Shown: piece by piece, positions 21,769 through 55,755 of the stretch
How positions within the stretch are numbered: position 1 is the stretch's first letter
How the letters are laid out: each line of letters begins with the position of its first letter
NCBI RefSeq assembly: GCF_019635465.1
Contig: NZ_JAHBZK010000021.1
Span: 28,479 to 92,478, forward strand
Length of the DNA stretch: 64,000 nt
Direction of reading: 5' to 3'
Source of the DNA: Hydrogenophaga sp.
GTDB lineage: Bacteria; Pseudomonadota; Gammaproteobacteria; Burkholderiales; Burkholderiaceae_C
Program-made: the position numbers and the translations under genes
Notes under the pieces: generated by a model
Seen by the model: only the letters and a program-made list of their open reading frames with translations
Databases searched by the model: none
What the model was told of the DNA's origin: nothing

Positions 21769-22330
21769 CCAACTGAAAGTCACAACCACCGCCATCGACG
21801 GAGTTCTCCTGCTGGAGCCTCGAGTGTTTGGCGACGAACGCGGCTTCTTTCTCGAGAGCTACAACCAGCGCACATTTGAAGAGGCCACAGGCCAAGTCGT
21901 CCAGTTCGTTCAAGACAACCATAGCCGCAGCGCCCAGGGTGTGCTGCGCGGGCTTCACTACCAGGACGAGCCATACGCCCAGGGCAAGCTGGTGCGTGTC
22001 ACGCGAGGCGCCGTGTTTGACGTGGTGGTCGACATTCGTCCCCGTTCGCCAAGCTTCGGCCAGTGGATTGGCGTGGAACTCTCCGAATCCAACCAGTTGC
22101 AGGCCTGGATCCCACCCGGACTGGCGCATGGTTTCTGCGTCACCAGCGAAAGCGCCGATTTCCAGTACAAGACCACCGAGTACTACAACGCGGCGCACGA
22201 GCGCTGCATCGCCTGGAACGACCCCGATCTCGCCATCGGCTGGCCCGCCGGCATCGAGCCCGTCTTGTCCGCGAAAGACCGCGCCGGACGGTCTTTTCAT
22301 GCAGCTACCGGGCGCCAAGTACCCCAATGA
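21761..22330 (+). CDS. rfbC: dTDP-4-dehydrorhamnose 3,5-epimerase
   Basis: A 189-residue cupin epimerase. [31 protein letters not shown] with the catalytic His, and [12 protein letters not shown] are diagnostic. It epimerises C3 and C5 of dTDP-4-keto-6-deoxyglucose. The ATG at 21761 overlaps the end of rfbA by eight bases; an in-frame ATG at 21746 is possible but less likely. Base composition here is clearly lower in GC than in rfbBDA. Confidence 0.95.
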
Positions 22331-23322
22331 AATCTTCGATGCCGCCTTTGATCTATGTGGCCGGCCACCGCGGCATGGTGGGCTCCGCCATCGTGCGAGC
22401 TCTGCTGGCCAACGGCCACCCGCAGGAGCGGATCGTCACGCGTACCCACGCCGAGCTCGACCTCACCAACCAGCAGGCGGTGCGCTCATTCTTTGCCGAC
22501 ACCCCGGTGGACGAGGTCTACTTGGCGGCGGCCCGTGTGGGTGGCATTCACGCCAACAATACGGAGCCGGCGCAGTTCATCTACGAGAACTTGATGATCG
22601 AGGCCAACGTGATTCACGAGGCCTACCGCGGGGGCGTTAAGCGGCTTCTGTTCCTGGGTTCAAGTTGCATCTACCCGCGCATGGCGCCCCAGCCCATGCG
22701 GGAAGACGCCTTGCTGACCGGCCCGCTCGAGGCCACCAATGAACCCTACGCAATCGCCAAAATTGCCGGCATCAAGCTCTGCGAGAGCTACAACCGCCAG
22801 TACGCAGCAGAGGGGGTCGACTTCCGAAGCGTCATGCCGACCAACCTGTACGGACCCGGTGACAACTACCACCCGGACAACTCCCACGTGATCCCGGGCC
22901 TGATCCAGCGCTTTCACCGGGCAAAGGAGGAACAATTGCCGGAAGTGAAGATCTGGGGCACCGGCCTACCCCGGCGGGAATTCCTGTATGTGGACGACAT
23001 GGCAGCTGCGTCGGTGCACGTGATGAACCTGCCAAAGTCCACGTACGACAGCCTGACCTCCCCCATGCAGAACCACATCAACGTGGGCTATGGCAGCGAC
23101 GTGTCGATCGGTGACCTGGGCCACCTGGTTGCCCGGGTCACCGGCTACAACGGCCGCATCGAGTTCGACACGACCAAGCCCGACGGCACGCCGCGCAAGC
23201 TGATGGACAGCCAGCGCCTGCGTGACATGGGATGGCGCCCGGCCGTCGACTTGGAGCAGGGCCTGGTGAAGGCCTACCAGGACTTCCTGCACCACAACGT
23301 ACGCGGAAAGTCGATCCAATGA
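22327..23322 (+). CDS. fcl: GDP-L-fucose synthase
   Basis: A 331-residue epimerase/reductase. [18 protein letters not shown] binds [20 protein letters not shown] and [15 protein letters not shown] contain the Ser and Tyr-x3-Lys, and [23 protein letters not shown] is diagnostic when read in sequence. It converts GDP-4-keto-6-deoxymannose to GDP-L-fucose. The gene lies before gmd, opposite to the common gmd-fcl order. Overlaps on both sides are four bases. Confidence 0.95.
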
Positions 23323-24446
23323 CCCATACAGCCAAGGTCGCCCTCATCACAGGCATCACCGGGCAGGATGGCTCGTACCTTGCCGAGTTTCTGCTTGAAA
23401 AGGGATATGTCGTCCACGGCATCAAACGCCGGGCCAGTCTGTTCAATACCGACAGGGTGGATCACATCTACCAGGATCCCCACGTCGACAATCAGCGCTT
23501 CGTATTGCACTACGGCGATCTGTCCGACACCAGCAATCTCGTGCGCATCATCCAGCAAGTGCAGCCCGACGAGATTTACAACCTCGGCGCGCAGAGCCAT
23601 GTGGCCGTGAGCTTCGAGAGCCCGGAGTACACCGCCGACGTGGACGCGGTGGGCACGTTGCGTATTCTTGAGGCCATCCGCATTCTTGGCCTTGAGAAGA
23701 AGACGCGCTTCTATCAGGCCAGCACCAGCGAGCTCTACGGCTTGGTCCAGGAGATTCCTCAGAAGGAGACCACGCCGTTCTACCCGCGCTCACCCTACGC
23801 AGTAGCCAAGCTGTACGCCTACTGGATCACGGTGAACTACCGCGAGGCCTATGGCATGTACGCATGCAACGGCATCCTGTTCAACCACGAGAGCCCGCGC
23901 CGAGGCGAGACCTTCGTCACCCGCAAGATCACCCGCGGTCTTGCCAATATTGCGCTGGGGCTGGAGAAATGCCTCTATATGGGCAACATGGACGCGCTGC
24001 GCGACTGGGGTCATGCCAAGGACTACGTCCGCATGCAGTGGCTGATGCTGCAACAGGAGCAACCTGAAGACTTCGTCATTGCCACCGGTCAGCAGTACAG
24101 CGTGCGGCAGTTCATTGAATGGTCTGCGTCCGAACTGGGCATTCGGTTGCGTTTCGAGGGACATGGCGTGGATGAGCGGGGGATCGTGACCTCGGTCGAC
24201 GGTGATCGCGCGCCGGCAGTCAAGCCGGGCGACGTGCTGGTGAGTGTCGATGCGCGCTATTTCAGGCCGACCGAAGTCGAGACCTTGCTGGGAGACCCGA
24301 CCAAAGCCAGGGAACGTCTGGGCTGGGTGCCCGAGATCAGTGCGCAGGCCATGTGCCGCGAGATGGTGGAGCACGATCTCGCGCAAGCGCGAAAGAAGGC
24401 GCTGCTCCAGCGCCATGGGTTTGCAGTCACCTTGAACCGGGAATGA
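23319..24446 (+). CDS. gmd: GDP-mannose 4,6-dehydratase
   Basis: A 375-residue dehydratase. [19 protein letters not shown] is the cofactor motif, QASTSELYG carries the Thr-Ser-Glu and [10 protein letters not shown] the Tyr/Lys pair; [17 protein letters not shown] is typical. It provides GDP-4-keto-6-deoxymannose for fcl. A stretch of about 20 residues (near 290-310, [18 protein letters not shown]) looks like the family's usual variable loop. No manC or manB for GDP-mannose supply is in the window. Confidence 0.95.
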
Positions 24447-24829
24447 GCATGGCCCACTTCAGCCTGATCGAGCTGCCGACGTTCAGCGACCCGAGAGGGT
24501 CGCTCACGGTGATGGAGAACTCACTGCCGTTTGCGCCGGTGCGTACCTACTGGATCAGTGGTGCGGACGGGCAGGTTCGGGGCGGACACCGTCACCACCA
24601 AACCCGCCAGGCGCTCATCGCTGTCGCCGGCACGGTCGTCATCTATATGAACGACGGAATCACCGAAGAGCACATCGCGCTGGATCACCCGTCGCGCTGC
24701 CTGCTGGTGGAGCCCAAGGACTGGCACACCATGACATTTGGCCCGGGCTCGGTGCTGTTGGTGATGTCGTCGCATCCCTACAACCGCAGTGACTATATCG
24801 ACGACCCCTACGACCGGAGAGTGTCGTGA
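24443..24829 (+). CDS. FdtA/WxcM-like sugar 3,4-ketoisomerase
   Basis: A 128-residue cupin of the FdtA/QdtA type. [37 protein letters not shown] with the catalytic histidines and [10 protein letters not shown] are typical. FdtA-type enzymes move the keto group of dTDP-4-keto-6-deoxyglucose from C4 to C3, before 3-amination. The next gene is a DegT transaminase, completing the first two steps to dTDP-3-amino-3,6-dideoxyhexose. Whether the product has galacto or gluco configuration cannot be told. Confidence 0.85.
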
Positions 24830-25914
24830 TCGAGTACGAAAGTCTGGCCCGATCCAACGCTGCCTTCATGAGCGAGCTGGAGGCCGCCGCATCGCGCGTC
24901 CTGCGCTCGGGCTGGTATGTGCTGGGTAACGAAGTGAATGCGTTCGAAGAGGAGTTCGCTGCCTGGGTGGGAGCACGTCACTGCATCGGCGTGGCCAACG
25001 GACTGGACGCGCTCATCCTGTCCATCGAGGCGCTGGACCTCCCTGCTCGCAGCGACATATTGGTCGCCTCCAACACTTACATCGCCACCATCATCGCCAT
25101 CGTTCGCGCAGGCCATCGGCCAGTGCTGGTCGAGCCCGAGCTCGAGACCTTCAACATGGATCCAAGCCGCCTGGCAGCGGCCATCACACCCCACACCCGG
25201 GCCATCTGCGTCACGCACCTGTTCGGCAAGGCATGCCGCATGGATGCCATTGGTGCATTTGCCCGAGAGCATGGACTGAGCCTGATCGAGGATTGCGCCC
25301 AGTCCCACGGTGCCCGCCTGGGCGGTCAGACCACAGGCACATTTGGTGACGCCGGCTGCTTCAGCTTTTATCCCACCAAGAACCTGGGTGCCATCGGCGA
25401 AGGCGGCGCCATTGTTACTAACGACGACTCGCTTGCCGAGCGGCTTCGCATGACGCGAAACTACGGTTCCGAGCGCAAATACGTCTTCAAGTATGTGGGG
25501 GTGAACTCACGCCTGCACGAGATGCAGGCCGCACTGTTGCGCGTGAAGCTGCGCCATCTCGATGCCATGACCTCGCACAAGCGCGCGCTGGCGCAGATCT
25601 ACTTCGATAGACTGCCCGACTGGGTGGACAAGCCCGTGCAGCGCGCCGACGAACACGACGTGTTTCACATTTTTGGCATCCGATGCCGGAAACGGGACGC
25701 CCTGCGACAGCACCTACTCGAGCATGGCGTCAAAACCGAGATCCACTACCCCATCCCACCGCACCGTCAGGAGGCCATGCGCGGCATCCTGAGCGGCGAC
25801 TATGCGGTGGCGGACGAACTGCATGGCACGGAGCTGAGCTTGCCAATCTCCAACGGCCACAATCGCCGGGATATCGAGTCGGTTTGCTCAATCATTGGGC
25901 GCATGTCGCGCTGA
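24826..25914 (+). CDS. DegT/DnrJ/EryC1 sugar transaminase (FdtB-like), GTG start
   Basis: A 362-residue PLP sugar aminotransferase. The PLP lysine is Lys185 in FYPTKNLGAIGEGGA and Asp156 lies in IEDCAQSHGA. Together with the preceding ketoisomerase it should aminate C3 of a dTDP-keto-6-deoxy sugar. The start is GTG at 24826, overlapping the previous stop, with GGAGAG upstream. An alternative is C4 amination of a UDP-keto sugar, but the adjacent FdtA-like gene favours the 3-amino route. Confidence 0.88.
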   Translation: MIEYESLARSNAAFMSELEAAASRVLRSGWYVLGNEVNAFEEEFAAWVGARHCIGVANGLDALILSIEALDLPARSDILVASNTYIATIIAIVRAGHRPVLVEPELETFNMDPSRLAAAITPHTRAICVTHLFGKACRMDAIGAFAREHGLSLIEDCAQSHGARLGGQTTGTFGDAGCFSFYPTKNLGAIGEGGAIVTNDDSLAERLRMTRNYGSERKYVFKYVGVNSRLHEMQAALLRVKLRHLDAMTSHKRALAQIYFDRLPDWVDKPVQRADEHDVFHIFGIRCRKRDALRQHLLEHGVKTEIHYPIPPHRQEAMRGILSGDYAVADELHGTELSLPISNGHNRRDIESVCSIIGRMSR

Positions 25915-25960
25915 CAGCCTGCCTCGCCAGGATCAACCACAATCCAGACCCCAGATCGAC

Positions 25961-27163
25961 ATGAGCACCGAAGCGTACTACGGCCTCCCTCCCCAAGTGG
26001 AGTTCTGCTCCAACTGCGTCATTTCCAATCAAAGGCCCAGCTCCACTGTGGAATTCGGCAGTCGCAAGGGCGAGAGGAAGTCAACGATTTCTTTCAAGGA
26101 TGGGCTGTGCTCGGCCTGCGCCTATGCACGCGAGAAGGAAAGCAATATTGATTGGAAGCTGCGCGAGGATCGCTTGGTGGAACTGCTATCCCGCTTTCGC
26201 CGCAACGACGGTCGCTATGACGTGATCGTGCCAGGCAGTGGCGGTAAGGACAGCGCCTACACGGCCCATATCCTCAAGGCAAGGTACGGAATGAACCCTC
26301 TGACCGTCACCTGGGCGCCACACCTCTACACCGACATAGGTTGGAAGAATTTCACCAACTGGATGCACATTGGCGGACTGGACAACATCCTTTACACGCC
26401 CAACGGAAAGCTGCATCGGCTGCTGACGCGGCTGGCCTTTCTAAACCTGCTGCATCCGTTCCAACCGTTCATCATCGGCCAGCGCATCATCGGCCCAGCC
26501 ATGGCGGCTCGCTTCGGCGTACCGCTGGTGATGTACGGAGAGAACCAGGCCGAGTACGGTAACAACGTCGACGACAACCAGCGCCCTACCATGGATCCAG
26601 CGTTCTTCTCGACAGGCGACCCACTGGACATGAAGTTTGGCGGTGTCACCATGCGAGACATCATGGCCGAGCATGGGTACGCCATGGGCGATTTCGCGCC
26701 CTACATCCCGCCGCAGCGCGAAACGCTGGAGCAGGCCGGCATCGAGGTGCACTACCTCGGCTACTACCTCAAATGGGATCCGCAGGAGTGCTACTACTAC
26801 GCGGTCGAGCACACCGGCTTCCAGGCTAACCCGGAGCGCACCGAAGGCACCTACTCCAAGTACAGCAGCATCGACGACCGTATCGACCCGTTCCACTACT
26901 ACACGACGCTGGCGAAGTTCGGCCTGGGACGCGCCTCCTACGACGCCGCGCAGGAAATCCGCAACGGCAAGATCACCCGCGAAGAGGGCGTCAATCTGGT
27001 GCGCAAGTTCGACCAGGAGTTCCCGGCAAAGTACTTCCCCGACTTCCTCGAGTACATCGGCATCAGCGAGGCCGAGTTCCACGAGACGGTCGACCGCTAC
27101 CGCTCGCCTCACCTCTGGCACAAGGTGGACGGCCAGTGGCAACTCAAACACGTGGTGAGCTGA
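25961..27163 (+). CDS. wbuX: N-acetyl sugar amidotransferase (WbuX/WbpG/PseA family)
   Basis: A 400-residue ATP-dependent amidotransferase. Paired cysteines near the N-terminus (FCSNCVISN and GLCSACAYA) suggest zinc binding, and the PP-loop VPGSGGKDSAYT binds ATP. The family converts an N-acetyl group on a sugar to an acetamidino group, with ammonia supplied by HisH- and HisF-like partners; those occur at 32.3-33.7 kb in this island. ATG at 25961 is chosen on family start; the frame extends further upstream. Confidence 0.9.
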   Translation: MSTEAYYGLPPQVEFCSNCVISNQRPSSTVEFGSRKGERKSTISFKDGLCSACAYAREKESNIDWKLREDRLVELLSRFRRNDGRYDVIVPGSGGKDSAYTAHILKARYGMNPLTVTWAPHLYTDIGWKNFTNWMHIGGLDNILYTPNGKLHRLLTRLAFLNLLHPFQPFIIGQRIIGPAMAARFGVPLVMYGENQAEYGNNVDDNQRPTMDPAFFSTGDPLDMKFGGVTMRDIMAEHGYAMGDFAPYIPPQRETLEQAGIEVHYLGYYLKWDPQECYYYAVEHTGFQANPERTEGTYSKYSSIDDRIDPFHYYTTLAKFGLGRASYDAAQEIRNGKITREEGVNLVRKFDQEFPAKYFPDFLEYIGISEAEFHETVDRYRSPHLWHKVDGQWQLKHVVS

Positions 27164-27165
27164 CC

Positions 27166-28224
27166 ATGACCCAGACCCCCGAATTCCAGATCCAGGGCCG
27201 CAGGATCGGCGCTGCCCATCCCCCGCTGGTGATCGCCGAGATCGGCATCAACCACGAGGGCAACTACGACAAGGCGATCCAGATGGTGGACGACGCGCGC
27301 CAGGCAGGCTGCGAATGCGTGAAGTTCCAGTACCACGTGATCGAGGATGAAATGATCCCCAACGACGTGATTCCGGGCAACGCCAAGGAGTCCATCTGGG
27401 ACATCATGAAACGGTGCGCACTGACGCCGGCCGAAGAGCGCCGGCTCAAGCAGTACGTCGAGGACAGAGGCCTCATTTATCTCAGCACGCCGTTCTCGCG
27501 CTCCGCCGCCAACGAGTTGGAGATGCTGAACGTCAACTGGTACAAGATCGGTTCGGGCGAGTGCAACAACTACCCGCTGATCCGCCACGTGGCGGCCTTC
27601 GGCAAGCCGGTGATCCTGTCGACCGGCATGAACGACATTGACAGTATCCGGCCTGCGGTGGATATCTTCCGTGCCGCCGGGGTGCCGTTCGCCCTGCTGC
27701 ACTGCACCTCGATGTACCCCACGCCATACGACAAAGTGCGGCTGGGTGCGATCGCCGAGCTGCAGGAGGCATTCCCCGACGCGGTGCTCGGCCTGTCCGA
27801 TCACTCACTGGGCCCCTACACCTGCTTAGGCGCCGTACCGCTGGGCGCGTCCATCCTCGAGAAGCACTTCACATCCAGCTTCGACTGGCCCGGGCCGGAC
27901 ATCCCGATCTCGGTTGATCCGGTCCAACTGGCCGAGATGGTCAAAGGCAGCCGCGCCATCCACCAGGCGTTGGGTGGGTCCAAACGTATCCTGGCCGAAG
28001 AACAGCCAACCATTGACTTCGCGTACGCCTGCGTGGTAACCACCCGACCGATCGCCGCAGGCGAGGCCTTCAGTGCCGACAACATCTGGGTCAAGCGCCC
28101 GGGCACCGGCGAGATCAAGGCGCGCGACTACGAACGTCTGATCGGCAAGGCGGCTACGCGCAGCCTGCCACTCAACACGCAGGTCGCCTGGTCGGACGTG
28201 GACGGTATCGAGTCCAGCACATGA
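27166..28224 (+). CDS. NeuB-family nonulosonic acid synthase (sialic/legionaminic/pseudaminic)
   Basis: A 352-residue synthase. The TIM-barrel part begins PLVIAEIGINHEGNYDKA, with CVKFQYH and YLSTPFSRSAANEL, and a C-terminal SAF domain occupies about residues 290-345 (TTRPIAAGEAFSADNIWVKRPGTGEI). It condenses phosphoenolpyruvate with an N-acyl mannosamine-type sugar to a nine-carbon acid. Sequence alone does not separate NeuB, LegI and PseI; context with an amidotransferase and NeuC-like enzyme favours legionaminic or sialic acid. Confidence 0.92.
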   Translation: MTQTPEFQIQGRRIGAAHPPLVIAEIGINHEGNYDKAIQMVDDARQAGCECVKFQYHVIEDEMIPNDVIPGNAKESIWDIMKRCALTPAEERRLKQYVEDRGLIYLSTPFSRSAANELEMLNVNWYKIGSGECNNYPLIRHVAAFGKPVILSTGMNDIDSIRPAVDIFRAAGVPFALLHCTSMYPTPYDKVRLGAIAELQEAFPDAVLGLSDHSLGPYTCLGAVPLGASILEKHFTSSFDWPGPDIPISVDPVQLAEMVKGSRAIHQALGGSKRILAEEQPTIDFAYACVVTTRPIAAGEAFSADNIWVKRPGTGEIKARDYERLIGKAATRSLPLNTQVAWSDVDGIESST

Positions 28225-29372
28225 CTGCGGTTGATCGCCCGATCAGGGTGCTCCATCTTGCGAGCTTCGTCGGCAACATCGGCGACCTCGCCAACCATGC
28301 GGGTGCGCGGCGCCTATTGGCCAAGCACGTGCCTTTTCGCCTGGAATTCACGGAACTGGAGATCCGTGAGTTTTACTGGAAGCAGCGCACCTTCGACGCT
28401 GCTTTTGTTGACTATGCCAACAGCTTCGACCTGCTGATCATCGGAGGCGGGAACTACTTCGAGCTGTGGGTCGACCATTCGATGACCGGTACATCGATCG
28501 ACATTTCGCCCGATCTGATGCAGCGGCTCACCGTACCGACGCTGTTTCACTCATTGGGCGTGGACACCGGTCAAGGCTATACCGAGCGCTCGGCCGGTCG
28601 CTTCCGCGCGTTCATAGAGACAGTGCTGGATCGCGACAACATGTTTGTGAGCGTGCGCAACGACGGCTCCACACGTGCCCTGAACGAGGTACTTGGCACG
28701 ACCATGGCGCAGCACATTCCCACGATGCCGGATGGGGGCTTCTTTGCAGCGCCGCCCCGTTCCGCGACAAGCGGGCGCAGTCCCTGCATCGGTATCAATA
28801 TCGCGGGCGACATGCTGGACAAGCGATTTGACGGTGGCCTGAATGTGGACGGATTTCTGGAGGAACTGGCCACTGCTTGCTGCGGGCTGCTGGACCAGCA
28901 GCCCGACATGCGCATCGTACTAATGCCCCACATCTGGCGCGACGTCTCCCTGATTGCACAACTCCTTCCCCGGTTTGCCGATAGCTACCTGCGAAGGCGC
29001 GTGGCCGTCGGCCGTCTGGAGCCCACACAGAACGGTTTGGACGAATTTCTCGCCAACTACCAGGCCTTCGACTTGGTACTGGGCATGCGGTTTCACGCCA
29101 ACGTCTGCCCGATCGGGATGGGCGTTCCTACCCGGGGCTTGCTCAACTATCCGCAGGTGCAACGCCTGTACGAGGAACTCGATCTGCCCGAGCGCCTGGT
29201 GGATGTGCGCGACCACGGTTTCGGCGTTCGGCTGCAGGATGCAGCAAGCTCGGATCTGGCCGCGCTACCTGAAAGGCGGGCCGAAAGCCTCCAAAGTGTC
29301 GGGCTCATCGAGCAACAGGCGCAGCGCACACTTTCGTCCATCAGCGCCTGGTTGCAACGCGCGCTGAACTGA
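28221..29372 (+). CDS. Polysaccharide pyruvyl transferase family protein
   Basis: A 383-residue protein of the PF04230 type. Seen features are the N-terminal ASFVGNIGDLANHAGARRLL, the DLLIIGGGNYFELW block, SVRNDGSTRAL and the late DLVLGMRFHANVCPIGMGVPTRGL. These enzymes add ketal pyruvate to sugars or are related glycan-modifying enzymes. It overlaps the synthase gene by four bases. Exact substrate unknown; it would add negative charge to the glycan. Confidence 0.8.
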   Translation: MTAVDRPIRVLHLASFVGNIGDLANHAGARRLLAKHVPFRLEFTELEIREFYWKQRTFDAAFVDYANSFDLLIIGGGNYFELWVDHSMTGTSIDISPDLMQRLTVPTLFHSLGVDTGQGYTERSAGRFRAFIETVLDRDNMFVSVRNDGSTRALNEVLGTTMAQHIPTMPDGGFFAAPPRSATSGRSPCIGINIAGDMLDKRFDGGLNVDGFLEELATACCGLLDQQPDMRIVLMPHIWRDVSLIAQLLPRFADSYLRRRVAVGRLEPTQNGLDEFLANYQAFDLVLGMRFHANVCPIGMGVPTRGLLNYPQVQRLYEELDLPERLVDVRDHGFGVRLQDAASSDLAALPERRAESLQSVGLIEQQAQRTLSSISAWLQRALN

Positions 29373-29374
29373 CC

Positions 29375-31147
29375 GTGAATCTTCTTTTCTTTAACCCGCA
29401 CGCCGCCCTGTGGCCACACACCGCGCCCGAGGCCTTCATCGCCCGCTCTCTCGCGGCGCAGGGCCACAGCGTCAATTACCTGACCTGCGGCAAGGCGCAG
29501 ACTTACTGCGCACCCATGACGGCGCGCCGGCACGCCCCGGGTTGCAGCCCGGAAGACGTCGCACGCATCTGCTCTGAATGCCGGGCGAACAAGGATGCTA
29601 TTGGTTTCGTGTACCGATTTCCCATCGACGAACTCGAGAACCATCTCGTCCCAAACGACAAAGCGCGGCTCGATGCGATCGCAGCCGATGCTGTGACACA
29701 CGGCTCCCTGGACACGCGATACCTGGGGGTCGACGTTGGTCGAATTGCGCTCTACGAGTTCACGCTGGCGCACAAGAAGATGAGCAGCGAGCTCACCCCT
29801 GTCCAGTGGCAACAGTACCAAGTGTACCTGGCCAACGCGCTGCGCACGCTGGAGGCTTTCTCGCGCTACCTGGACCGACATTCGGTCGATGTCGTCTTTG
29901 CCTTCAGCCCCCAGTACTCGAACATCAACTCGTGCATGCAGTACGCCATTGCGCGTGGCGTGAAGGTCATGTTCATGGAAAGCGGGACCAATCTGTCAGA
30001 CAGGTTGAGTTCCATGCGCGTGTGGGACTGGAAGGTTCATCGGCTGGTCAATCCGGCACTGACTTACTGGAAGCAATCGAGTCTGAATCCGGTGTCGGCC
30101 AGCGGTGTGGCGGCAGTCATCGGGCATTTCGAGCAGCTCCTGTCTGGCCAGCATTTCGCGGTGTTCTCTGCCCCCTACAGCGAAAGCCGCGACTTGCGGC
30201 AACGCTGGCATATCCGTCATGACCAGAAGGTGCTGCTCATGACCTTGTCCAGCTACGACGAGGCCTACGCAGCGCTGCTGATTTCCGCATTCCCGCAAAG
30301 CAAGGTTTTCAGTGACGTGTTCGAAACCCAGGCCGACTGGGTACGTGCCACCATCGAATGGGCGCGGGACAGGCCGGACGTGTTTCTGGTGATTCGCGTG
30401 CACCCGCGAGATTTCCCCAACAAGCGTGAGAACTTCCGTTCCGAACAGTCCTTCATGCTTGAGGACCTGCTGGCCAGCGTACCGCCCAACGTTCATGTGA
30501 ACTGGCCATCGGAGGGCGTACCGCTGTACGAGCTGCTGGAGGATACGGACGCCCTGCTCACGGGGTGGTCCGTCACAGCGCTGGAAGCCCTGATCCTGGG
30601 TATTCCGGTCGTCACCTACGATGCCCGATTGCCGTCGTATCCAGCAGATGTGCACTACACGGGGCGATCGGCCAGCGAGTATTTCGGCAACATCGACCGT
30701 GCATTGTCCGATGGATGGTCGCTGAAGAATGCCATCAACGGGTTCCGCTGGATGGCCTACAACTTCGTGACCTGTACCGTGAGAGCGTCGGACCGCTTCG
30801 GGCGCTTCGAGCTCGGCCAGACGGCCGGACCGATTCATCGCTTGGCATCGCGGGTCATGAATCGGCTTCCCAGGATCTCCCATGCCATGGACCTGGTCCA
30901 TTGGCAGTCTGCACGAGACGCCGGACGCATCGTTTCGTGCATGATTGAACAAGGATTCGACGCTTTGCCGCCAGCGCGTGCAGTGCTCGGCGAGATGCCG
31001 GTATCGAGCGGTGACGATCGAAATCTGGTCCTCGAAGGCTTGGCCCGGCTCCATGCGCTCCTGTACGGGGACAGCAAGCTCCCGACCGACAAACCTGGAC
31101 TTTCACTGCGTATCCGCAATCTGCTTGCGCAGGAGGGCGTCGCATGA
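29375..31147 (+). CDS. Large glycosyltransferase-like protein of unknown specificity, GTG start
   Basis: A 590-residue soluble protein. The central and C-terminal parts look like a GT-B fold: LLMTLSSYDEAYAALL, VFLVIRVHPRDFPNKRENF, then LLEDTDALLTGWSVTALEALILGIPVVTYDA, which resembles the donor-binding region of capsule and glycerophosphotransferase-like enzymes. The first 200 residues are not recognised. It starts at GTG two bases after the previous stop and overlaps the NeuC-like gene. It may transfer the nonulosonate made by its neighbours, but this is inference. Confidence 0.6.
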   Translation: MNLLFFNPHAALWPHTAPEAFIARSLAAQGHSVNYLTCGKAQTYCAPMTARRHAPGCSPEDVARICSECRANKDAIGFVYRFPIDELENHLVPNDKARLDAIAADAVTHGSLDTRYLGVDVGRIALYEFTLAHKKMSSELTPVQWQQYQVYLANALRTLEAFSRYLDRHSVDVVFAFSPQYSNINSCMQYAIARGVKVMFMESGTNLSDRLSSMRVWDWKVHRLVNPALTYWKQSSLNPVSASGVAAVIGHFEQLLSGQHFAVFSAPYSESRDLRQRWHIRHDQKVLLMTLSSYDEAYAALLISAFPQSKVFSDVFETQADWVRATIEWARDRPDVFLVIRVHPRDFPNKRENFRSEQSFMLEDLLASVPPNVHVNWPSEGVPLYELLEDTDALLTGWSVTALEALILGIPVVTYDARLPSYPADVHYTGRSASEYFGNIDRALSDGWSLKNAINGFRWMAYNFVTCTVRASDRFGRFELGQTAGPIHRLASRVMNRLPRISHAMDLVHWQSARDAGRIVSCMIEQGFDALPPARAVLGEMPVSSGDDRNLVLEGLARLHALLYGDSKLPTDKPGLSLRIRNLLAQEGVA

Positions 31148-32295
31148 CCCGCAAGGTGCTATTCATTACTGGTACACGTGCCGACTTCGGCAAGCTCAAG
31201 CCACTCATTCAGGCCGTCGATGCGGCTGAAGGCTTCGAGACCGCGGTGTTCATCACGGGGATGCATACCTTGTCCCGCTACGGTTACACGCTTGACGAGG
31301 TATACCGCGTGCTCCCGGAGCACCGGTTGCGCGACGGCACGCGCAGCGTGTACGTCTATCACAACCAAGTGGTCGGCGAGCCCATGGAACGTGTGCTCGC
31401 ATCCACCATCGAGGGCCTGTCGAGGTACCTGACCGAGTTTCGCCCCGACTTGATCGTCGTCCATGGCGATCGCGTAGAAGCGCTGGCTGGCGCGATCGTC
31501 GGTGCGCTGCGCAACATCCTGGTGGCGCATGTGGAAGGCGGCGAGGTTTCGGGCACGGTGGACGAACTGATCCGCCATGCCGTAACCAAGATGTCCCATA
31601 TCCACTTCGTCGCCAACGACGAAGCATCGCGTCGCCTGCTTCAACTCGGTGAGCGTCCAGAGACCATCCATGTGATCGGGTCCCCTGACATAGATCTGAT
31701 GATGTCGCCGTCGCTGCCCGACATCGCCGAGGTCAAACGCTACTACGACATTCCGTTTCAGGATCACGGCGTCGTGCTGTTCCACCCCGTCACGACCGAC
31801 CTCGAGGACACGCAGCGCTCGGCTCAAGGGATCGCCGACGCGGTTCTTGCCAGCGGACGTGACCATGTGGTCATCTATCCGAACAACGACGAGGGTTGCG
31901 AGTTGATCTTCAGCGCCTGGGAGCGCTTCAGGAATCAGCGACGCATCAAGCTGCTGCCTTCGATGCGCGTCGAATACTTTCTGGTGATGCTACGCAACGC
32001 GCGTTACCTCCTGGGGAACTCCAGCGCGGGCATTCGAGAGTGCCCGGTCTTTGGCGTACCGGCCATCAACGTTTCGACGCGCCAGAACGGTCGGTCCAAC
32101 GCCGCCTGCATCATCAACGTGCCCGGTGAGACATCCGCGCTGACTGCGGCCATGGACTCGGCCTGGGACAATCTGGAGCGGCATGCGCCTGACCTCTCCT
32201 TCGGCAAGGGAAACAGCGCCGGCATGTTCGTGTCCGCCCTGAGCGACGCCCACTTCTGGAGCGCGTCAACCCAGAAGCTGTTCAACGACATCTGA
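31144..32295 (+). CDS. UDP-N-acetylglucosamine 2-epimerase, hydrolysing (NeuC/LegG-like)
   Basis: A 383-residue epimerase. KVLFITGTRADFGKLKPL, DLIVVHGDRVEALAGAI, HVEGGEVSGTVDELIRHAVTKMSH and LLGNSSAGIRECPVFGVPAINV are diagnostic of the NeuC group. It releases UDP and inverts C2 to give ManNAc or its 2,4-diacetamido-trideoxy analogue, the substrate of the NeuB-family synthase. It is separated from the synthase by the pyruvyl transferase and the large glycosyltransferase-like gene. Confidence 0.92.
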   Translation: MTRKVLFITGTRADFGKLKPLIQAVDAAEGFETAVFITGMHTLSRYGYTLDEVYRVLPEHRLRDGTRSVYVYHNQVVGEPMERVLASTIEGLSRYLTEFRPDLIVVHGDRVEALAGAIVGALRNILVAHVEGGEVSGTVDELIRHAVTKMSHIHFVANDEASRRLLQLGERPETIHVIGSPDIDLMMSPSLPDIAEVKRYYDIPFQDHGVVLFHPVTTDLEDTQRSAQGIADAVLASGRDHVVIYPNNDEGCELIFSAWERFRNQRRIKLLPSMRVEYFLVMLRNARYLLGNSSAGIRECPVFGVPAINVSTRQNGRSNAACIINVPGETSALTAAMDSAWDNLERHAPDLSFGKGNSAGMFVSALSDAHFWSASTQKLFNDI

Positions 32296-32300
32296 ACGCC

Positions 32301-33056
32301 ATGCAGCGGATCATTGCCCGGCTGGACATCAAGAATGGCATGGTCATCAAGGGCATCCACCTTGAAGGCCAGCGCCGTATCGGCGACCCAGTGGAGATTG
32401 CGCGCAAGTACTATGCGCAGGCCATCGACGAGATCATCATGATGGATTCGGTTGCAGCGCTCTACGGCCGCAGCAACTTGTTTCACACCATCGCCGAAGC
32501 CTGCCGCACTGTGTTCGTGCCCATCACCATGGGTGGTGGGATTCGCTCGGTCACCGACGTTGAGGTGGCACTTGCCGCCGGAGCCGACAAGGTCGCCATC
32601 AACAGTGCGCTCGTGCAGGAGCCGAGTCTGGTCGACCGTATCGCGTCGATCTACGGCAGCCAATGCCTAGTCGCCTCGATAGAGGCCAAACGCCGAGACC
32701 AAGGCTGGGAGGTGTACGTGAGCAACGGGCGCGAGCCGACAGGGCGTGACGTGATCGACTGGGTGCGCGAACTGGAGCGACGCGGCGCCGGTGAAGTGCT
32801 CGTGACCTCAGTTGATCAGGAGGGCACGCAGCGCGGTTTCGATATCGCCCTGTGCCACGCCGTGGTGGAAGCCGTCCGCATCCCCGTCATTGCCTCTGGA
32901 GGTGCGGGCAAGCTTGAACACCTGAGCCAGCTGAATGCCGGCGCTCACGTGCAAGCCATCGCCATCGCCTCGATGCTGCACTACAACAAGGCCTTGGTGG
33001 ACCAAATCAAGTCCGTGCTACCTGACACCGTTCGGCACACGAAGGGGTTTGCATGA
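32301..33056 (+). CDS. wbuZ: HisF-like subunit for sugar amidination (WbuZ-like)
   Basis: A 251-residue HisF-like barrel. Asp9 (RLDIKNG) matches a catalytic Asp of HisF, but the second, in the HisF block xIDAKR, is Glu128 here (SIEAKR). VPITMGGGIRSVTD and SVDQEGTQRGF are phosphate-binding regions. The change and the context (next to a HisH-like gene, no other his gene) point to the amidinating complex with WbuX, where it channels ammonia, and not to histidine synthesis. Confidence 0.85.
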   Translation: MQRIIARLDIKNGMVIKGIHLEGQRRIGDPVEIARKYYAQAIDEIIMMDSVAALYGRSNLFHTIAEACRTVFVPITMGGGIRSVTDVEVALAAGADKVAINSALVQEPSLVDRIASIYGSQCLVASIEAKRRDQGWEVYVSNGREPTGRDVIDWVRELERRGAGEVLVTSVDQEGTQRGFDIALCHAVVEAVRIPVIASGGAGKLEHLSQLNAGAHVQAIAIASMLHYNKALVDQIKSVLPDTVRHTKGFA

Positions 33057-33667
33057 TCGCGGTGATCGACTACGGCATCGGAAACGTGCGCAGTGTGATC
33101 AACGCGCTTGAGCACGTGGGTGCCAGCGCGACGTTGACCCGCGATCCGGTCAAGCTGCGTGCCGCTGACGCGCTGGTGTTACCAGGAGTGGGCGCATTCG
33201 GTGAGGGCATGCGCCGGCTGGCAACCCATGGCCTGACCGAGCCACTGCGCGAATTGGTGCTGGCTGGCCGCCCCCTTTTGGGCATATGCCTAGGTTTCCA
33301 GATGCTGATGCGCTCAAGCAACGAAATGGGAAAGCACGCCGGGCTTGGACTGATCGATGCCGACGTGGTTCGCCTGCCTGTGGACGCGCGTCTTCCCCAT
33401 ATTGGGTGGGCTCCAGTGCATGCAACCGCCTCTCCGAGTGCGCCCCGCTTGCTGAAAGGCCTCGAGGGAGCGCGTTTCTACTTCGTTCACTCCTACGGCG
33501 TGATCGGTTCCACCTTCACGTTTGCGGCCGGCATTGCAGAGTGCGACGGCCTGCCGTTCGCCGCGCTGGCGGAATCGGGTCGTGTGTTCGGCACCCAGTT
33601 CCATCCGGAGAAAAGCGGTGAAGCCGGCCTGACCATGTTGCGAAACTTCATGGATGTCTGCACATGA
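33053..33667 (+). CDS. wbuY: HisH-like glutaminase subunit for sugar amidination (WbuY-like)
   Basis: A 204-residue class I glutamine amidotransferase. The catalytic triad is complete: Cys79 in LLGICLGFQML, His184 and Glu186 in GTQFHPEKSG. The oxyanion region LPGVGAFGEGM is present. It would release ammonia from glutamine for its HisF-like partner, with which it overlaps by four bases. Supplies the amidino nitrogen for WbuX. Confidence 0.87.
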   Translation: MIAVIDYGIGNVRSVINALEHVGASATLTRDPVKLRAADALVLPGVGAFGEGMRRLATHGLTEPLRELVLAGRPLLGICLGFQMLMRSSNEMGKHAGLGLIDADVVRLPVDARLPHIGWAPVHATASPSAPRLLKGLEGARFYFVHSYGVIGSTFTFAAGIAECDGLPFAALAESGRVFGTQFHPEKSGEAGLTMLRNFMDVCT

Positions 33668-34371
33668 CAGCGGGCTATCTGGCGATCGTGACCGCGCGCG
33701 CTGGCAGCAAGCGGCTGCCGGACAAGAACATCCGACCGCTTTGTGGGCATCCCCTGTTCGTGTGGTCGGTGAAGGCGGCGCTTGCCGCAGCTTCGGTCAG
33801 CCGCATCATCGTGTCCACCGATTCGCCTTACTACCGCGAGATCGCCCTGAAGGCGGGTGCGGACTGCCCCTGGCTGCGACCGCCCGAGCTGGCGACCGAT
33901 ACCACCTCGAGCGCCGACGTGGTCGCTGACATGCTGGACCGCCTGGGTGATGAACTTGCGCGGTACCGTGGCCTGGTGCTGCTGCAACCCACTTCGCCGT
34001 TGCGCGTAGCAGCGGACATTGAGGCGGCAATCGGACTGTACGAAGCCCGGCAGGCGCCTGCCGTCGTCACTGTGAGCGAAGCGGAGTGCCCGCCTGCCTG
34101 GATGGGCCAGCTGCCCGCGGATGGCTGCATGGATCATTTTGTGCAGCCGCAGTTTCGCGGCATTCGCAGCCAGGATCTTGGGCTGTGGTATCGCCTCAAC
34201 GGTGCTGTGTACGTGATTGGCATCGATACCTTCCAGCGCGAACACGGGTTCATGCCAACAGGAACGCTGGGCTACGTCATGCCACGAGAGCGCTCAGTTG
34301 ACGTGGACACAGCCTTCGATTTCCAGGTGGCCAATGCGTTGATGAGCGCGCGGGCGCACCGAGACACCTGA
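33664..34371 (+). CDS. CMP-nonulosonate cytidylyltransferase (NeuA/LegF/PseF-like)
   Basis: A 235-residue CMP-sugar synthetase. The start AIVTARAGSKRLPDKNIRPL is diagnostic, followed by LLQPTSPLRVAADIEAAI and a C-terminal VDVDTAFDFQVA block with metal-binding Asp residues. It activates the nine-carbon acid with CTP. Located right after the HisF/HisH pair, so amidination could happen before or after activation. Confidence 0.92.
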   Translation: MTAGYLAIVTARAGSKRLPDKNIRPLCGHPLFVWSVKAALAAASVSRIIVSTDSPYYREIALKAGADCPWLRPPELATDTTSSADVVADMLDRLGDELARYRGLVLLQPTSPLRVAADIEAAIGLYEARQAPAVVTVSEAECPPAWMGQLPADGCMDHFVQPQFRGIRSQDLGLWYRLNGAVYVIGIDTFQREHGFMPTGTLGYVMPRERSVDVDTAFDFQVANALMSARAHRDT

Positions 34372-35492
34372 TGAGTGGCAGTCACATCGATCGGCTCTCG
34401 GGGGTTCGTGGCCTGGCCGCACTCGTGGTGCTCCTGGCGCACCTCGCGCAGATTCACCTGCTGCGATTCGAGGGACTGGGTACGCCTCTGCATCGGGTGT
34501 CGTCCGTAGCGAGCGAATACGCCGTAATTGTCTTCTTCGTCCTGTCCGGATACCTCATCACCCATACGCTGGAAGCGAACATCCGCCGCAATGGATCCGT
34601 GGACATGGGTGAATACCTGACCGCTCGCATAGCGCGCCTGTACCCTCCGTTTCTACTGGCCGTCGGGGTGTCGATCGCCGTCTATGGCAGCCTCGACACC
34701 CTGGCGCTACCGGGTCGAGGCGGAGCCATGTCCCTGCCCGGCGACCTGTACGCCGCGCGAGAGATTGTTCATCTGCACGGAAGCGAGGTACTGAACGCGC
34801 TATTCATGATACGAGGCATGCTTGAGATCAACGGGCCTTTGTGGAGCCTGTATATCGAGGCGAAACTGTACTTGGTGTTCGCCTGCGCATTGGCGCTGAT
34901 GACCGGTCACCGGCGGCGATTGGCACTCGTGGCCACGCTCGCAGTGGTCCTGTGGAGTGGATTCAGGCACAACCCGGGGTTTGCGCTCTACGCTGCAATC
35001 TGGCTCTGCGGCTCCCTTGGCTACTACCTCTGGAATGAGGAAGGACGCGCGTTGCATCGTCGCAGGGCGCAGCTTTGCGGCCTCGCGGTGGTCGGACTGG
35101 CGATGGTGGCCGCCCGCGACACGTTGGTCGCGAATGCCCCGCTGTATGAGCCCGCTGTCCAGTTGGCAGCGTCGGTCGGAATCGCGTGGATGCTGTTCCA
35201 TGTCAAGCTCCCCTGGCCACGGATGCAAGGACTGGCCGGTTGTTCATACAGTCTTTACGTGACGCATTTCCCCCTCCTGCTGCTAGTGCAGGCAATGGTG
35301 GTATCTGTGGACTCGCGTACACCGTTTGGCGCTCTGTCGGCCGTCCTCGTGAGTTTTGCCCTGGCGGGAACTGTCGCCTGGCTGGGCGGTGTGCTCGAGC
35401 GGCGCAAGAGCGCCATTCAGGCCGGGCTGCTCAAGGCCCTGACCACGATGTCGCGCGGCCTCGGACTGGACAGCCAGGGGAGGACTCCGTGA
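34371..35492 (+). CDS. Acyltransferase 3 family membrane protein (OafA-like)
   Basis: A 373-residue integral membrane acyltransferase with about ten hydrophobic segments. The family motifs RLSGVRGLAALVVLLAHL, IVFFVLSGYLITHTLE and RIARLYPPFLLAVGVS are present at the N-terminus. These proteins O-acetylate or otherwise acylate surface sugars using a cytoplasmic acyl donor. It starts within the previous stop (TGATG). In Legionella, a related protein acetylates legionaminic acid, an attractive parallel here but unproved. Confidence 0.85.
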   Translation: MSGSHIDRLSGVRGLAALVVLLAHLAQIHLLRFEGLGTPLHRVSSVASEYAVIVFFVLSGYLITHTLEANIRRNGSVDMGEYLTARIARLYPPFLLAVGVSIAVYGSLDTLALPGRGGAMSLPGDLYAAREIVHLHGSEVLNALFMIRGMLEINGPLWSLYIEAKLYLVFACALALMTGHRRRLALVATLAVVLWSGFRHNPGFALYAAIWLCGSLGYYLWNEEGRALHRRRAQLCGLAVVGLAMVAARDTLVANAPLYEPAVQLAASVGIAWMLFHVKLPWPRMQGLAGCSYSLYVTHFPLLLLVQAMVVSVDSRTPFGALSAVLVSFALAGTVAWLGGVLERRKSAIQAGLLKALTTMSRGLGLDSQGRTP

Positions 35493-37258
35493 GCGCGCCT
35501 GCTTCACGCATGCAGCGGGCACGCGCCTTGGTGGGCTTTTTCGTTGCCCTGCTAGGAAGCGTCGGTGTCCTTCGCGTGTTCTTGTCCGGACTGGCCGTGT
35601 CCGCGCTCGAACTAGGTGGTCTTGCACTGCTTTTCCCGTTTCTCAAGCTGGTGACGGACCCCGCGTTTCACCAGAGCCTCCTGCAGTGGGCAGGAGACGC
35701 TCCCATGGCCTACATGTTGCGTGACCATCGCGAGTCGGTCTTGGTTGCAGGCCTTGCGCTGATGCTGCTGTTCGTGATCCGGGGCTGGGCCACGGCTGCT
35801 TTGGTGCGTTACCAGGCGACTGTAGGGGCTCGCATCAACCGGGAGAGCAGTGGTGAACTCATCAATACCGCCCTGAGTTCACGGTATCAGCTGTTCCTCA
35901 AACACAGCCCCGTTCAGATTGCAGGCATTTCCTACTCAAACACGACGCATGCGGCGCTGCTGTTCCAGTCCATGGCCACCGCACTAAATGAAGCCCTTCT
36001 GCTCGCGGTCGTCTTGATCGGCCTGCTGGTGACCAACCCTGCGGTGTTCGTTTCCCTCGTAGCCCTTGCGGTGGCACTCGGTCTGGGCGTGTTTCGGCCC
36101 CTGTCGCGGCGGGTCGCCAGGATCGGGCGCCAGACGCAAGACATCGATCTCGCCCGCCATCGCTTTGTCTTTGCCATGGCCAACGCGATTCGTGACATCA
36201 AGATCATGGGCATCGAGATTCCGTTCTCCCGCCGCAACCAGTCGTTGGTGGACCAGCATGCCAGCCTGGCCGCGGACTACCAGACCATCGCCACGGTCCA
36301 GCGGGTCGCGGTCGAGGTGGTTCTCTTTTGCAGCGTCGTCGCAGCGGCCATCTGGTTCGCATGGCTCGATGCCGACATCAACCATTCCGCACCCATCATC
36401 GGCACACTCGGCCTGGTGGCGGTCCGGGTGGCCCCGGCGCTCTCGCGCCTCGCGGCGGCTGTCAACGGCATGCGCTACTCGCTGCCCTTTGTGGAGCGTC
36501 TGCTGGACACCCGGGTCACTCTGCGCGAGTTCCCGCATCAGCGGACTGCGCAGGCCGCTGACTTCCCGGGTCCTTATCGTGCCGAGGGCATTGGCTTCAA
36601 CTACGGCGATCGGCAGGTGCTACAGGACGCCACGATCAGTATCGGCCAGGGCGAAGTGGTGGCAGTGGTCGGACCCTCGGGGGCCGGGAAGTCGACTCTG
36701 CTGGATCTGCTTGCCGGGCTCATGCCTCCTGACTCGGGCCGGTTCTTCCTGGGCAGGACGGCATTTTCGCCCTTCACCAGCCTTCATTTTCCAGCCCGAC
36801 TGGGTTACGTGCCTCAGACCATCGCGACCTTCGACGGCTCGATCGCCTTCAATATCGCACTTGAACCGGCACCGGATGCGGAGCGTCTGCAGCGTGCGAT
36901 CACTCGCGCGCGACTGGAGACCTTTGTCAACGAACTGCCCCAGGGCCTGCAAACCTGGATCGGAGAAGGGGGGCGCAAGCTCTCCGGCGGACAAAAGCAA
37001 CGGCTGGGAATCGCCCGGGCTTTGTATCGGGACCCCGCCTTCCTGATTCTCGATGAAGTCACGAGTGCACTCGATGACGCCACGGCCCAGGAGGTGATGG
37101 GTGAACTGATGGCGATGCGGGGAACGGTTTCCATGTTGTTCGTCACCCACCATCTCGGGCAGATCCCAGCCGATCGCGTCTATCGGCTGGACAATGGACA
37201 GCTTTCACGCGTCGCCACTACCGGAGGCGACCTGGTCACGGACACGCCACCCACATGA
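35489..37258 (+). CDS. ABC transporter, fused permease-ATPase (PglK/Wzk-like flippase), GTG start
   Basis: A 589-residue half-transporter. Six membrane segments occupy roughly residues 10-310, then an ATPase domain with Walker A GPSGAGKST, signature LSGGQKQR, Walker B FLILDEVTSALD and the switch His in FVTHHL. The architecture matches lipid-linked oligosaccharide flippases of the PglK type, which can replace Wzx. GTG at 35489 follows GGGGAGGA and overlaps the acyltransferase stop. It is the only glycan exporter recognised in the island. Confidence 0.85.
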   Translation: MSAPASRMQRARALVGFFVALLGSVGVLRVFLSGLAVSALELGGLALLFPFLKLVTDPAFHQSLLQWAGDAPMAYMLRDHRESVLVAGLALMLLFVIRGWATAALVRYQATVGARINRESSGELINTALSSRYQLFLKHSPVQIAGISYSNTTHAALLFQSMATALNEALLLAVVLIGLLVTNPAVFVSLVALAVALGLGVFRPLSRRVARIGRQTQDIDLARHRFVFAMANAIRDIKIMGIEIPFSRRNQSLVDQHASLAADYQTIATVQRVAVEVVLFCSVVAAAIWFAWLDADINHSAPIIGTLGLVAVRVAPALSRLAAAVNGMRYSLPFVERLLDTRVTLREFPHQRTAQAADFPGPYRAEGIGFNYGDRQVLQDATISIGQGEVVAVVGPSGAGKSTLLDLLAGLMPPDSGRFFLGRTAFSPFTSLHFPARLGYVPQTIATFDGSIAFNIALEPAPDAERLQRAITRARLETFVNELPQGLQTWIGEGGRKLSGGQKQRLGIARALYRDPAFLILDEVTSALDDATAQEVMGELMAMRGTVSMLFVTHHLGQIPADRVYRLDNGQLSRVATTGGDLVTDTPPT

Positions 37259-37935
37259 ACCTGATGTCCATATTGACCCGACTTGGTCTGTGCGATCCTG
37301 ACCTGACTCCGCAGAAAAGCTACGGACAGGACGGTGAGGATCTGATCCTCGATCGTCTGCTCGAGCGACTGACCACTGGCTTCTACGTGGACGTGGGCGC
37401 GCACCACCCCGCGCGCTTCTCCAACACCTATTTGTTCTACCGGCGCGGCTGGCGCGGCATCAATATCGATGCCCAGCCGGGTTCGATGAAGCCATTCGAC
37501 CGCCTGCGCCCGCGCGATATCAATATCGAGTGTGGCGTGGCGGGCTCCCCCGGTCGCCTGACCTACCACCGATTCGATGAGCCGGCGCTCAACACCTTCG
37601 ACGCAACTGAAGCGCAGCGAAAGAATCGCGCGCCGTACCACCTGATAGAAACAATCGAAGTGGAGGTCCAGCGGCTAGACGCCTTGCTGGATGAGTACCT
37701 GCCGCCTGGGCAGGCAATCGATTTTCTTTCAGTGGATGTCGAGGGTCTGGACCACGATGTGCTGGCGTCGAATGATTGGACCCGCTACCGCCCGCGTTTC
37801 GTATTGGCCGAGACCCTGCGCACCGACATGCTTCAACTGGCGGATTGTCCTATAGCGGAATTGATGCGCAATGTGGGCTACACGCCGGTCAGCAAGGCCT
37901 ACAACACCACGTTCTTTGCGCGGGAGGCACAGTGA
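37255..37935 (+). CDS. FkbM family methyltransferase
   Basis: A 226-residue SAM-dependent methyltransferase. FYVDVGAHHPARFSNTYLF is the SAM-binding region and IDFLSVDVEGLDHDVL the typical FkbM acidic block. FkbM enzymes O-methylate sugars or lipids. It overlaps the ABC transporter gene by four bases, and abuts another methyltransferase gene. Substrate unknown. Confidence 0.85.
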   Translation: MNLMSILTRLGLCDPDLTPQKSYGQDGEDLILDRLLERLTTGFYVDVGAHHPARFSNTYLFYRRGWRGINIDAQPGSMKPFDRLRPRDINIECGVAGSPGRLTYHRFDEPALNTFDATEAQRKNRAPYHLIETIEVEVQRLDALLDEYLPPGQAIDFLSVDVEGLDHDVLASNDWTRYRPRFVLAETLRTDMLQLADCPIAELMRNVGYTPVSKAYNTTFFAREAQ

Positions 37936-55735: not shown

Positions 55736-55755
55736 GGCGTGCCCTTGCGACGTGC

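Follow-up and report, generated by a model that had tools for sequence, protein, structure and literature searches.

Acetamidino groups are named on legionaminic (Leg), 8-epilegionaminic (8eLeg) and pseudaminic (Pse) acids (PMC9912281, PMC3958885, PMC7371886), and are known also on hexosamines (PMC10607449). The N-acetyl sugar amidotransferases (NASAT proteins) that carry a PP-loop are thought to join ammonia to the N-acetyl group of the sugar by means of ATP, displacing water (PMC10607449), and ORF 28 of the lipopolysaccharide (LPS) locus of Legionella is described as homologous to Campylobacter jejuni ptmG, which accounts for the step from CMP-Leg5Ac7Ac to CMP-Leg5Am7Ac (PMC3766260). Here we analyse a 64,000-nt stretch of a Hydrogenophaga sp. 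genome (contig NZ_JAHBZK010000021.1, positions 28,479 to 92,478), called the window throughout, in which nonulosonate and amidination genes lie together at 25961-34371; genes and loci that resemble those of this module are called window-type. It is very likely that the module makes some form of amidinated nonulosonate. We put at roughly 0.6 the probability that its product is 5-acetamidino-neuraminic acid in CMP-activated form, a sialic acid bearing an acetamidino group; this proposal is drawn from sequence comparison.

The genes named in the original prediction are all present, open and co-directional. They belong to a run of ten open reading frames (ORFs), all in one direction, that extends from 24443 to 34371 and begins with genes for an FdtA-like protein and a DegT aminotransferase, followed in order by:

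25961..27163, plus strand: WbuX, a NASAT-type N-acetyl sugar amidotransferase with PP-loop and four-cysteine motif (TIGR03573, 350.8 bits, over the cut-off of 203.2)
27166..28224, plus strand: NeuB-type nonulosonate synthase of the meningococcal lineage, from its match to 1XUU (423 bits), residues and trees (PF03102, 239 bits, and SAF, both passed; TIGR03569, 352.9 bits, short of 399.65)
28221..29372, plus strand: polysaccharide pyruvyl transferase-like protein (PF04230, 58.6 bits, cut-off 25.3)
29375..31147, plus strand: 590-residue glycosyltransferase-like protein (weak glycosyltransferase matches only: NF046086 and, below its gathering score, DUF6716)
31144..32295, plus strand: NeuC-type hydrolysing UDP-HexNAc 2-epimerase (TIGR03568, 367.3 bits, over the cut-off of 235.9; motifs present)
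32301..33056, plus strand: WbuZ, a HisF-like protein and predicted ammonia-channel partner (TIGR03572, the WbuZ model, 267.3 bits, below 299.7; hisF model 259.1 bits, below 294.55)
33053..33667, plus strand: HisH-like glutaminase that keeps the cysteine (GICLG) and His-Pro-Glu (HPE) motifs (TIGR01855, 193.4 bits, cut-off 105.4)
33664..34371, plus strand: NeuA-like CMP-nonulosonate cytidylyltransferase (PF02348, 80.5 bits; PseF model 150.6 bits, below 205.7; among solved structures its best relative is 6IFD, which bears the name CMP-N-acetylneuraminate synthetase, at 135 bits)

The WbuX start and the NeuA-like stop match real gene ends. Neighbouring genes of the run overlap by 4 nt at five of its nine junctions and lie 2-5 nt apart at three, with 46 nt ahead of WbuX; from WbuX onward every junction is of one of the two tight kinds.

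These genes allow a pathway to be proposed. NeuC is predicted to convert UDP-GlcNAc to ManNAc, which NeuB would join with phosphoenolpyruvate to give N-acetylneuraminic acid (Neu5Ac), and the NeuA-like enzyme would turn this into CMP-Neu5Ac. HisH would split glutamine and the ammonia would travel through the WbuZ barrel; WbuX, with ATP, would amidinate CMP-Neu5Ac at its C5 N-acetyl group, NH taking the place of the carbonyl oxygen, to yield CMP-5-acetamidino-neuraminic acid. A transferase encoded in the locus, possibly the 590-residue protein, would add this sugar to a surface oligosaccharide. We infer all of the substrates, the transfer step and the placing of amidination after CMP activation; that WbuX would act on CMP-Neu5Ac, and so the stage of amidination, is argued by analogy with PtmG, which acts on CMP-Leg5Ac7Ac. 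The sole solved close relative of the window WbuX is 8WEX (LpNASAT, 517.5 bits), from Legionella and presumably the product of ORF 28. Both the PP-loop SGGxDS and the tetracysteine motif are present in the window protein, and across 80 WbuX rows (the window plus 79 loci) the PP-loop occurs in all and the cysteine pattern used in 65.

The grouping of the module is beyond chance. A contig scan with WbuX alone gave 213 relatives, of which the best 80 were kept (51 with 8 kb on both sides, 29 short), and because the loci were fetched by WbuX alone their neighbours provide an independent test. In the 51 full-flank loci, WbuZ and HisH are found in every one, NeuB (>300 bits to the window's) in 47 and NeuA in 46; the full set is present in 44 with any NeuC and in 35 with a window-type NeuC, while relatives of the pyruvyl transferase-like protein occur in 19, of the 590-residue protein in 6 and of FdtA in 2. 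The four loci lacking a window-like NeuB are L099, L104, L124 and L126. In the nearest loci, L122 (a Rhodocyclaceae metagenome-assembled genome, MAG) and L058 (Microcystis elabens), the order WbuX, NeuB, pyruvyl transferase-like, 590-residue protein, NeuC, WbuZ, HisH, NeuA is kept. Some rows are repeated: L040 is the L072 contig, L039 the L076 contig, and L066 and L067 are near copies.

The legionaminic acid pathway needs LegB and LegC. The genome of the window, in an assembly that is 88% complete, has no LegB over cut-off (best 119.7 bits, cut-off 475) and no LegC over cut-off (best 171.3 bits, cut-off 420), its best LegC match being WecE (621 bits as such); with NeuC, NeuB and a CMP transferase present and both LegB and LegC below cut-off, the gene content is of the Neu5Ac type. 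No LegC match above 168 bits was found among the best 80 WbuX loci, counting the 29 short ones, and LegB exceeds 250 bits in six of them (L068, L076, L081, L093, L096 and L123). A second search, at the level of the order, took in 399 genomes; 35 of these, among them the window's own, gave a WbuX match at E 1e-40, and gene neighbourhoods were read from 20 stretches. All nine LegC-carrying loci come from these stretches, scoring 197-808 bits with the same LegC query and combining a WbuX of 33-56% identity with a legionaminic-like NeuB. We called a locus window-type if it had no LegC above 190 bits, no LegB above 250 and a NeuC above 290 bits to the window's. In whole genomes, LegC exceeds 300 bits in 8 of 8 of the legionaminic type (four over cut-off) and reaches at most 237 bits in two that have LegB without LegC. 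A legionaminic pathway is thus unsupported by the LegB and LegC searches of genome and loci.

In a quick WbuX tree with SH-aLRT support, the window falls within a 76-row group (97, starred) in which no locus carries LegC, and 8WEX in a separate group of 8 rows (99, starred) where six of seven loci do. NeuB of the window shares a group (100, starred) with NmNeuB, the Neu5Ac synthase of meningococci, against the LegC-carrying loci; it has N74, G131 and F288, which recur in 54, 54 and 53 of the 54 rows of the window type, where the nine LegC rows show G/S/D, P/A and L/I/V. (L039 and L040, and for NeuB and NeuC also L066, were left out of the trees and kept in the residue counts.) As no LegB or LegC is over cut-off, NeuB falls with NmNeuB and WbuX lies apart from the 8WEX clade, a neuraminic sugar appears likelier than a legionaminic one, with gene content as the main support and the kinship to NmNeuB second. 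The original prediction had left the choice at a legionaminic- or sialic-acid-like residue: its amidinated CMP-nonulosonate is well supported, and gene content narrows the choice to the sialic type as the likelier.

Several observations weigh against a neuraminic product: (i) The 88% completeness of the genome leaves room for missing genes. (ii) The LegC margin is thin, four legionaminic-type loci scoring 197-235 bits with the same query, and a LegC/PglE-like gene above 300 bits exists in 4 of 15 window-type genomes (G400, G402, G403 and G409), in one over cut-off; in G402 and G403 the match seemingly lies about 3 kb past the end of the fetched stretch, judging by contig number and position. 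(iii) In the WbuX tree the window-type loci L118, L119 and L130 fall outside the 76-row group and the LegC-carrying L046 and L051 outside the 8WEX group, so that these five are in neither. (iv) In the family scans NeuB, WbuZ and also the cytidylyltransferase fall short of the curated cut-off of the NCBIfam model that each matches best. (v) Position 184 of the window NeuB is Ser where N. meningitidis has Asn (47 Asn and 7 Ser in the 54 window-type rows), and the equivalent site is reported as Asn or Tyr in Neu, Tyr in Leg and Ser in Pse pathways (PMC7371886). (vi) NeuB and NeuC of E. coli K1 (L147), which we take to belong to a true Neu5Ac pathway, group with the LegC-carrying, legionaminic set, on long branches whose placement the tree program flags as unsure, and K1 NeuB lacks N74, G131 and F288 and shows the residues of the LegC rows. 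Since a Neu5Ac producer has the legionaminic-type pattern, these residues mark two lineages and not a substrate, and we rejected them as proof of ManNAc use. The NeuB and NeuC phylogeny advised in the original prediction therefore places NeuB with NmNeuB and, through K1, leaves the substrate unfixed by trees alone, a warning for tree-based substrate prediction. (vii) The window-type NeuC clade (100, starred) leaves out human GNE, the Acinetobacter baumannii diNAcBac epimerase and K1 NeuC alike, so kinship does not settle the NeuC substrate; to our knowledge the clade holds no enzyme known to use UDP-GlcNAc. The NeuC loop motif GGEVSGT was tried as a substrate mark and rejected, GGERSGT being seen in 4 of 9 LegC-carrying rows.

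The HisF-like protein has Glu128 in place of the catalytic Asp, as originally predicted: an alignment sets this residue opposite the Asp in AIDAKRR of the HisF encoded elsewhere in the genome, yet it is common among window-type WbuZ (E in 37, Q in 11, V in 3, D in 3 and T in 1 of 55 rows). The accompanying claim that no other his gene is present holds at most for the window, since separate hisH, hisA and hisF genes stand side by side on contig C15 (G000:C15:32868-35034); the pair is thus not the genome's only copy, the situation in which it was to be read as true histidine enzymes. Because Glu128 faces the catalytic Asp and a separate hisH-hisA-hisF set exists, the HisF-like/HisH-like pair is, by sequence, a paralogue fit for amidination.

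Other genes of the window, some of which bear on the alternatives to a neuraminic product, are:

24443..24829, plus strand: FdtA-like protein, WxcM C-terminal family (PF05523, 106 bits), which probably serves another sugar of the same glycan
24826..25914, plus strand: DegT aminotransferase, probably a QdtB-type enzyme for 3-amino sugars and by score not LegC (among solved structures 7N63, a 'putative aminotransferase', scores best at 342.5 bits, ahead of QdtB 3FRK at 307.7 and WbpE at 227; LegC model 167, cut-off 420; PseC model 194.7, cut-off 423.5)
34371..35492, plus strand: acyltransferase-3 family protein (PF01757, 92.8 bits), with possible O-acylation activity
35510..37258, plus strand: PglK/MsbA-like one-piece ABC exporter, a candidate flippase (PglK model 210 bits, far below the cut-off of 1000)
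45962-46543: NeuD/PglB-like acetyltransferase (153 bits, cut-off 160.8)
46540-48531: PseB/FnlA-domain dehydratase

A second sugar-type gene group, with the WecE-type dTDP-sugar aminotransferase, lies on the minus strand at 54599-58791.

One alternative is that the module yields the Leg5Am7Ac of Legionella, starting from UDP-GlcNAc and using the dehydratase and acetyltransferase listed above with an aminotransferase, or genes missing from the assembly. The presence of these two enzymes speaks for it, as does a NeuC equally near to the diNAcBac epimerase 5XVS (171 bits) and human GNE (175 bits); we nevertheless regard it as unlikely, given that neither LegB nor LegC is over cut-off in the genome, that the two aminotransferases found by the LegC model look QdtB-like and WecE, and that neither WbuX nor NeuB groups with LegC-carrying loci. 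No more probable is that NeuABC make plain Neu5Ac while WbuX, WbuZ and HisH amidinate another sugar, an N-acetylated 3-amino-6-deoxyhexose being one candidate: in E. coli O145, WbuX is described as making FucNAm (PMC10607449) and FdtA-like and QdtB-like enzymes adjoin the module, but NeuB is near in 47 of 51 relatives against 2 for FdtA, and the one solved close WbuX relative is that of Legionella. Slightly less probable still is an amidinated nonulosonate that differs in configuration or in oxidation state, for instance an epimer or a 9-deoxy, fusaminic-like acid; close WbuX and NeuB relatives occur with LegB, a CBS-domain nucleotidyltransferase and in some cases a short-chain dehydrogenase/reductase (SDR) but no LegC, and a 5-acetimidoylamino-3,5,9-trideoxy acid is known from Fusobacterium nucleatum, whereas the window's own genome has no LegB over cut-off and its NeuC belongs to another clade. 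A histidine-pathway role of HisF and HisH, for which HisH passing the hisH model would argue, was rejected as close to impossible on account of the genome's own his set and Glu128.

The remaining two genes of the module bear on the fate of a 5-acetamidino-neuraminic acid. Relatives of the pyruvyl transferase-like protein are found in 28 of the 80 loci, 400 nt or less from WbuX in 13, and since they recur in WbuX loci this protein probably acts on the same glycan. Its predicted model (pLDDT 94.3) has GT-B-type glycosyltransferases, UDP-GlcNAc 2-epimerases and secretion-accessory proteins among the 50 fold matches listed, and Pvg1p is not among these. Pvg1p is a yeast pyruvyltransferase described as having a fold like sialyltransferases (PMC4872226), and because of this resemblance a role in sugar transfer is left open. 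The 590-residue protein (model pLDDT 85.7, four cysteines invariant in 11 aligned rows) finds the CMP-Kdo-using WbbB domain with the highest target TM-score of its 50 listed fold matches, at only 0.44, and DUF6716 is a family named beside a polysialyltransferase in E. coli UTI89; it is, weakly, a candidate CMP-nonulosonate transferase. The pyruvylation and O-acylation suggested originally are guesses from neighbouring genes only. Gmd, Fcl, the nonulosonate module, the pyruvyl transferase-like and 590-residue proteins and FkbM recur together in the window (22315-37935), L063 (Methylophilus sp. Leaf416, a cultured environmental strain), L070 and L122, with FdtA and the DegT aminotransferase joining them in L063 and L122, hinting at one shared oligosaccharide.

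The 53 window-type loci among the best 80 come from 13 phyla, one locus being unplaced; many belong to MAGs, and single odd phyla may be binning errors. There is perhaps an even chance that at least 13 phyla share a dedicated 5-acetamidino-neuraminic acid pathway with its own amidotransferase clade, and that a sister set with LegB and without LegC makes a 9-deoxy analogue. In L068, L076, L081, L093 and L096, window-like WbuX and NeuB stand with LegB, a CBS-domain nucleotidyltransferase, a distant NeuC and a protein of about 283 residues, which in L093 is an SDR, and no LegC; this set is a candidate 9-deoxy 5-acetamidino nonulosonate pathway, perhaps like that of F. nucleatum. In L148, a plasmid of Alistipes indistinctus from human gut (p2BBH45), NeuA-like, NeuB-like, NeuC and N-acetyl sugar amidotransferase genes lie in a row. 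In L149 (Sinorhizobium meliloti pSymA) NeuB and NeuC fall in the window-type clades, with NeuA-like and polysialyltransferase-family genes alongside and no gene annotated as an amidotransferase in the stretch.

Horizontal gain of the module fits its patchy spread in the family, an 89% identical WbuX in a Rhodocyclaceae MAG and its lower G+C content (0.58-0.64 per 2 kb at 22-44 kb, 0.64-0.71 in the rest of the window). In the 399-genome search neither the single further genome of the genus nor any of the ten family genomes listed had a WbuX match. Another sample contained 59 family genomes besides the window's, and WbuX-like proteins turned up in 6 of them (E 1e-30), none above 60% identity. 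A megablast search for the module in plasmids gave no match, and the three proteins tried for a defence role had none in PADLOC.

If the proposal is correct, 5-acetamidino-neuraminic acid is a zwitterionic sialic acid: the positively charged acetamidino group would, in a widespread sugar, give a different charge to the sialic acid that sialidases, Siglecs and phages recognise, assays set for Neu5Ac could miss a product that is 0.984 Da lighter (calculated), and a gene set now annotated partly as sialic acid and partly as histidine genes would be explained. Labelled with DMB, the product is calculated at m/z 425.167, against 426.151 for Neu5Ac; acetimidoyl methyl groups are reported to give signals near 2.2 ppm (1H) and 20 ppm (13C) (PMC9912281).

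The module shares features with each of the described systems and differs from all of them: (i) With the legionaminic LPS locus of Legionella pneumophila it has in common the amidotransferase family, nonulosonate genes in one locus and, as proposed, a 5-acetamidino sugar (PMC3766260), but Legionella follows the Leg pathway from UDP-diNAcBac and its WbuX is in a separate tree group. (ii) Campylobacter flagellar sugars likewise include acetamidino nonulosonates, although on a legionaminic (with PtmG) or pseudaminic backbone, no neuraminic case being found in the parts of that literature covered. (iii) The Neu5Ac pathways of N. meningitidis and E. coli K1 have the same NeuC, NeuB and NeuA steps by gene content, and NeuB goes with NmNeuB; in contrast, the UTI89 stretches examined have no gene annotated as an amidotransferase, and the K1 enzymes group elsewhere. 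(iv) The 5-acetimidoylamino-3,5,9-trideoxy nonulosonate of F. nucleatum 25586 is also 5-acetamidino and by its name has no nitrogen at C7, but is 9-deoxy and of gluco configuration; as of 2020, the gene cluster for fusaminic acid was described as still uninvestigated (PMC7371886). (v) WbuX of E. coli O145 and WbpG of Pseudomonas aeruginosa belong to the same amidotransferase family, yet their described substrates are FucNAc and, at its C3 group, a ManNAc3NAc-type uronic acid, respectively (PMC10607449). We found no report of an amidinated neuraminic acid in the open-licence literature; the amidination machinery is thus known, and its neuraminic substrate would be new.

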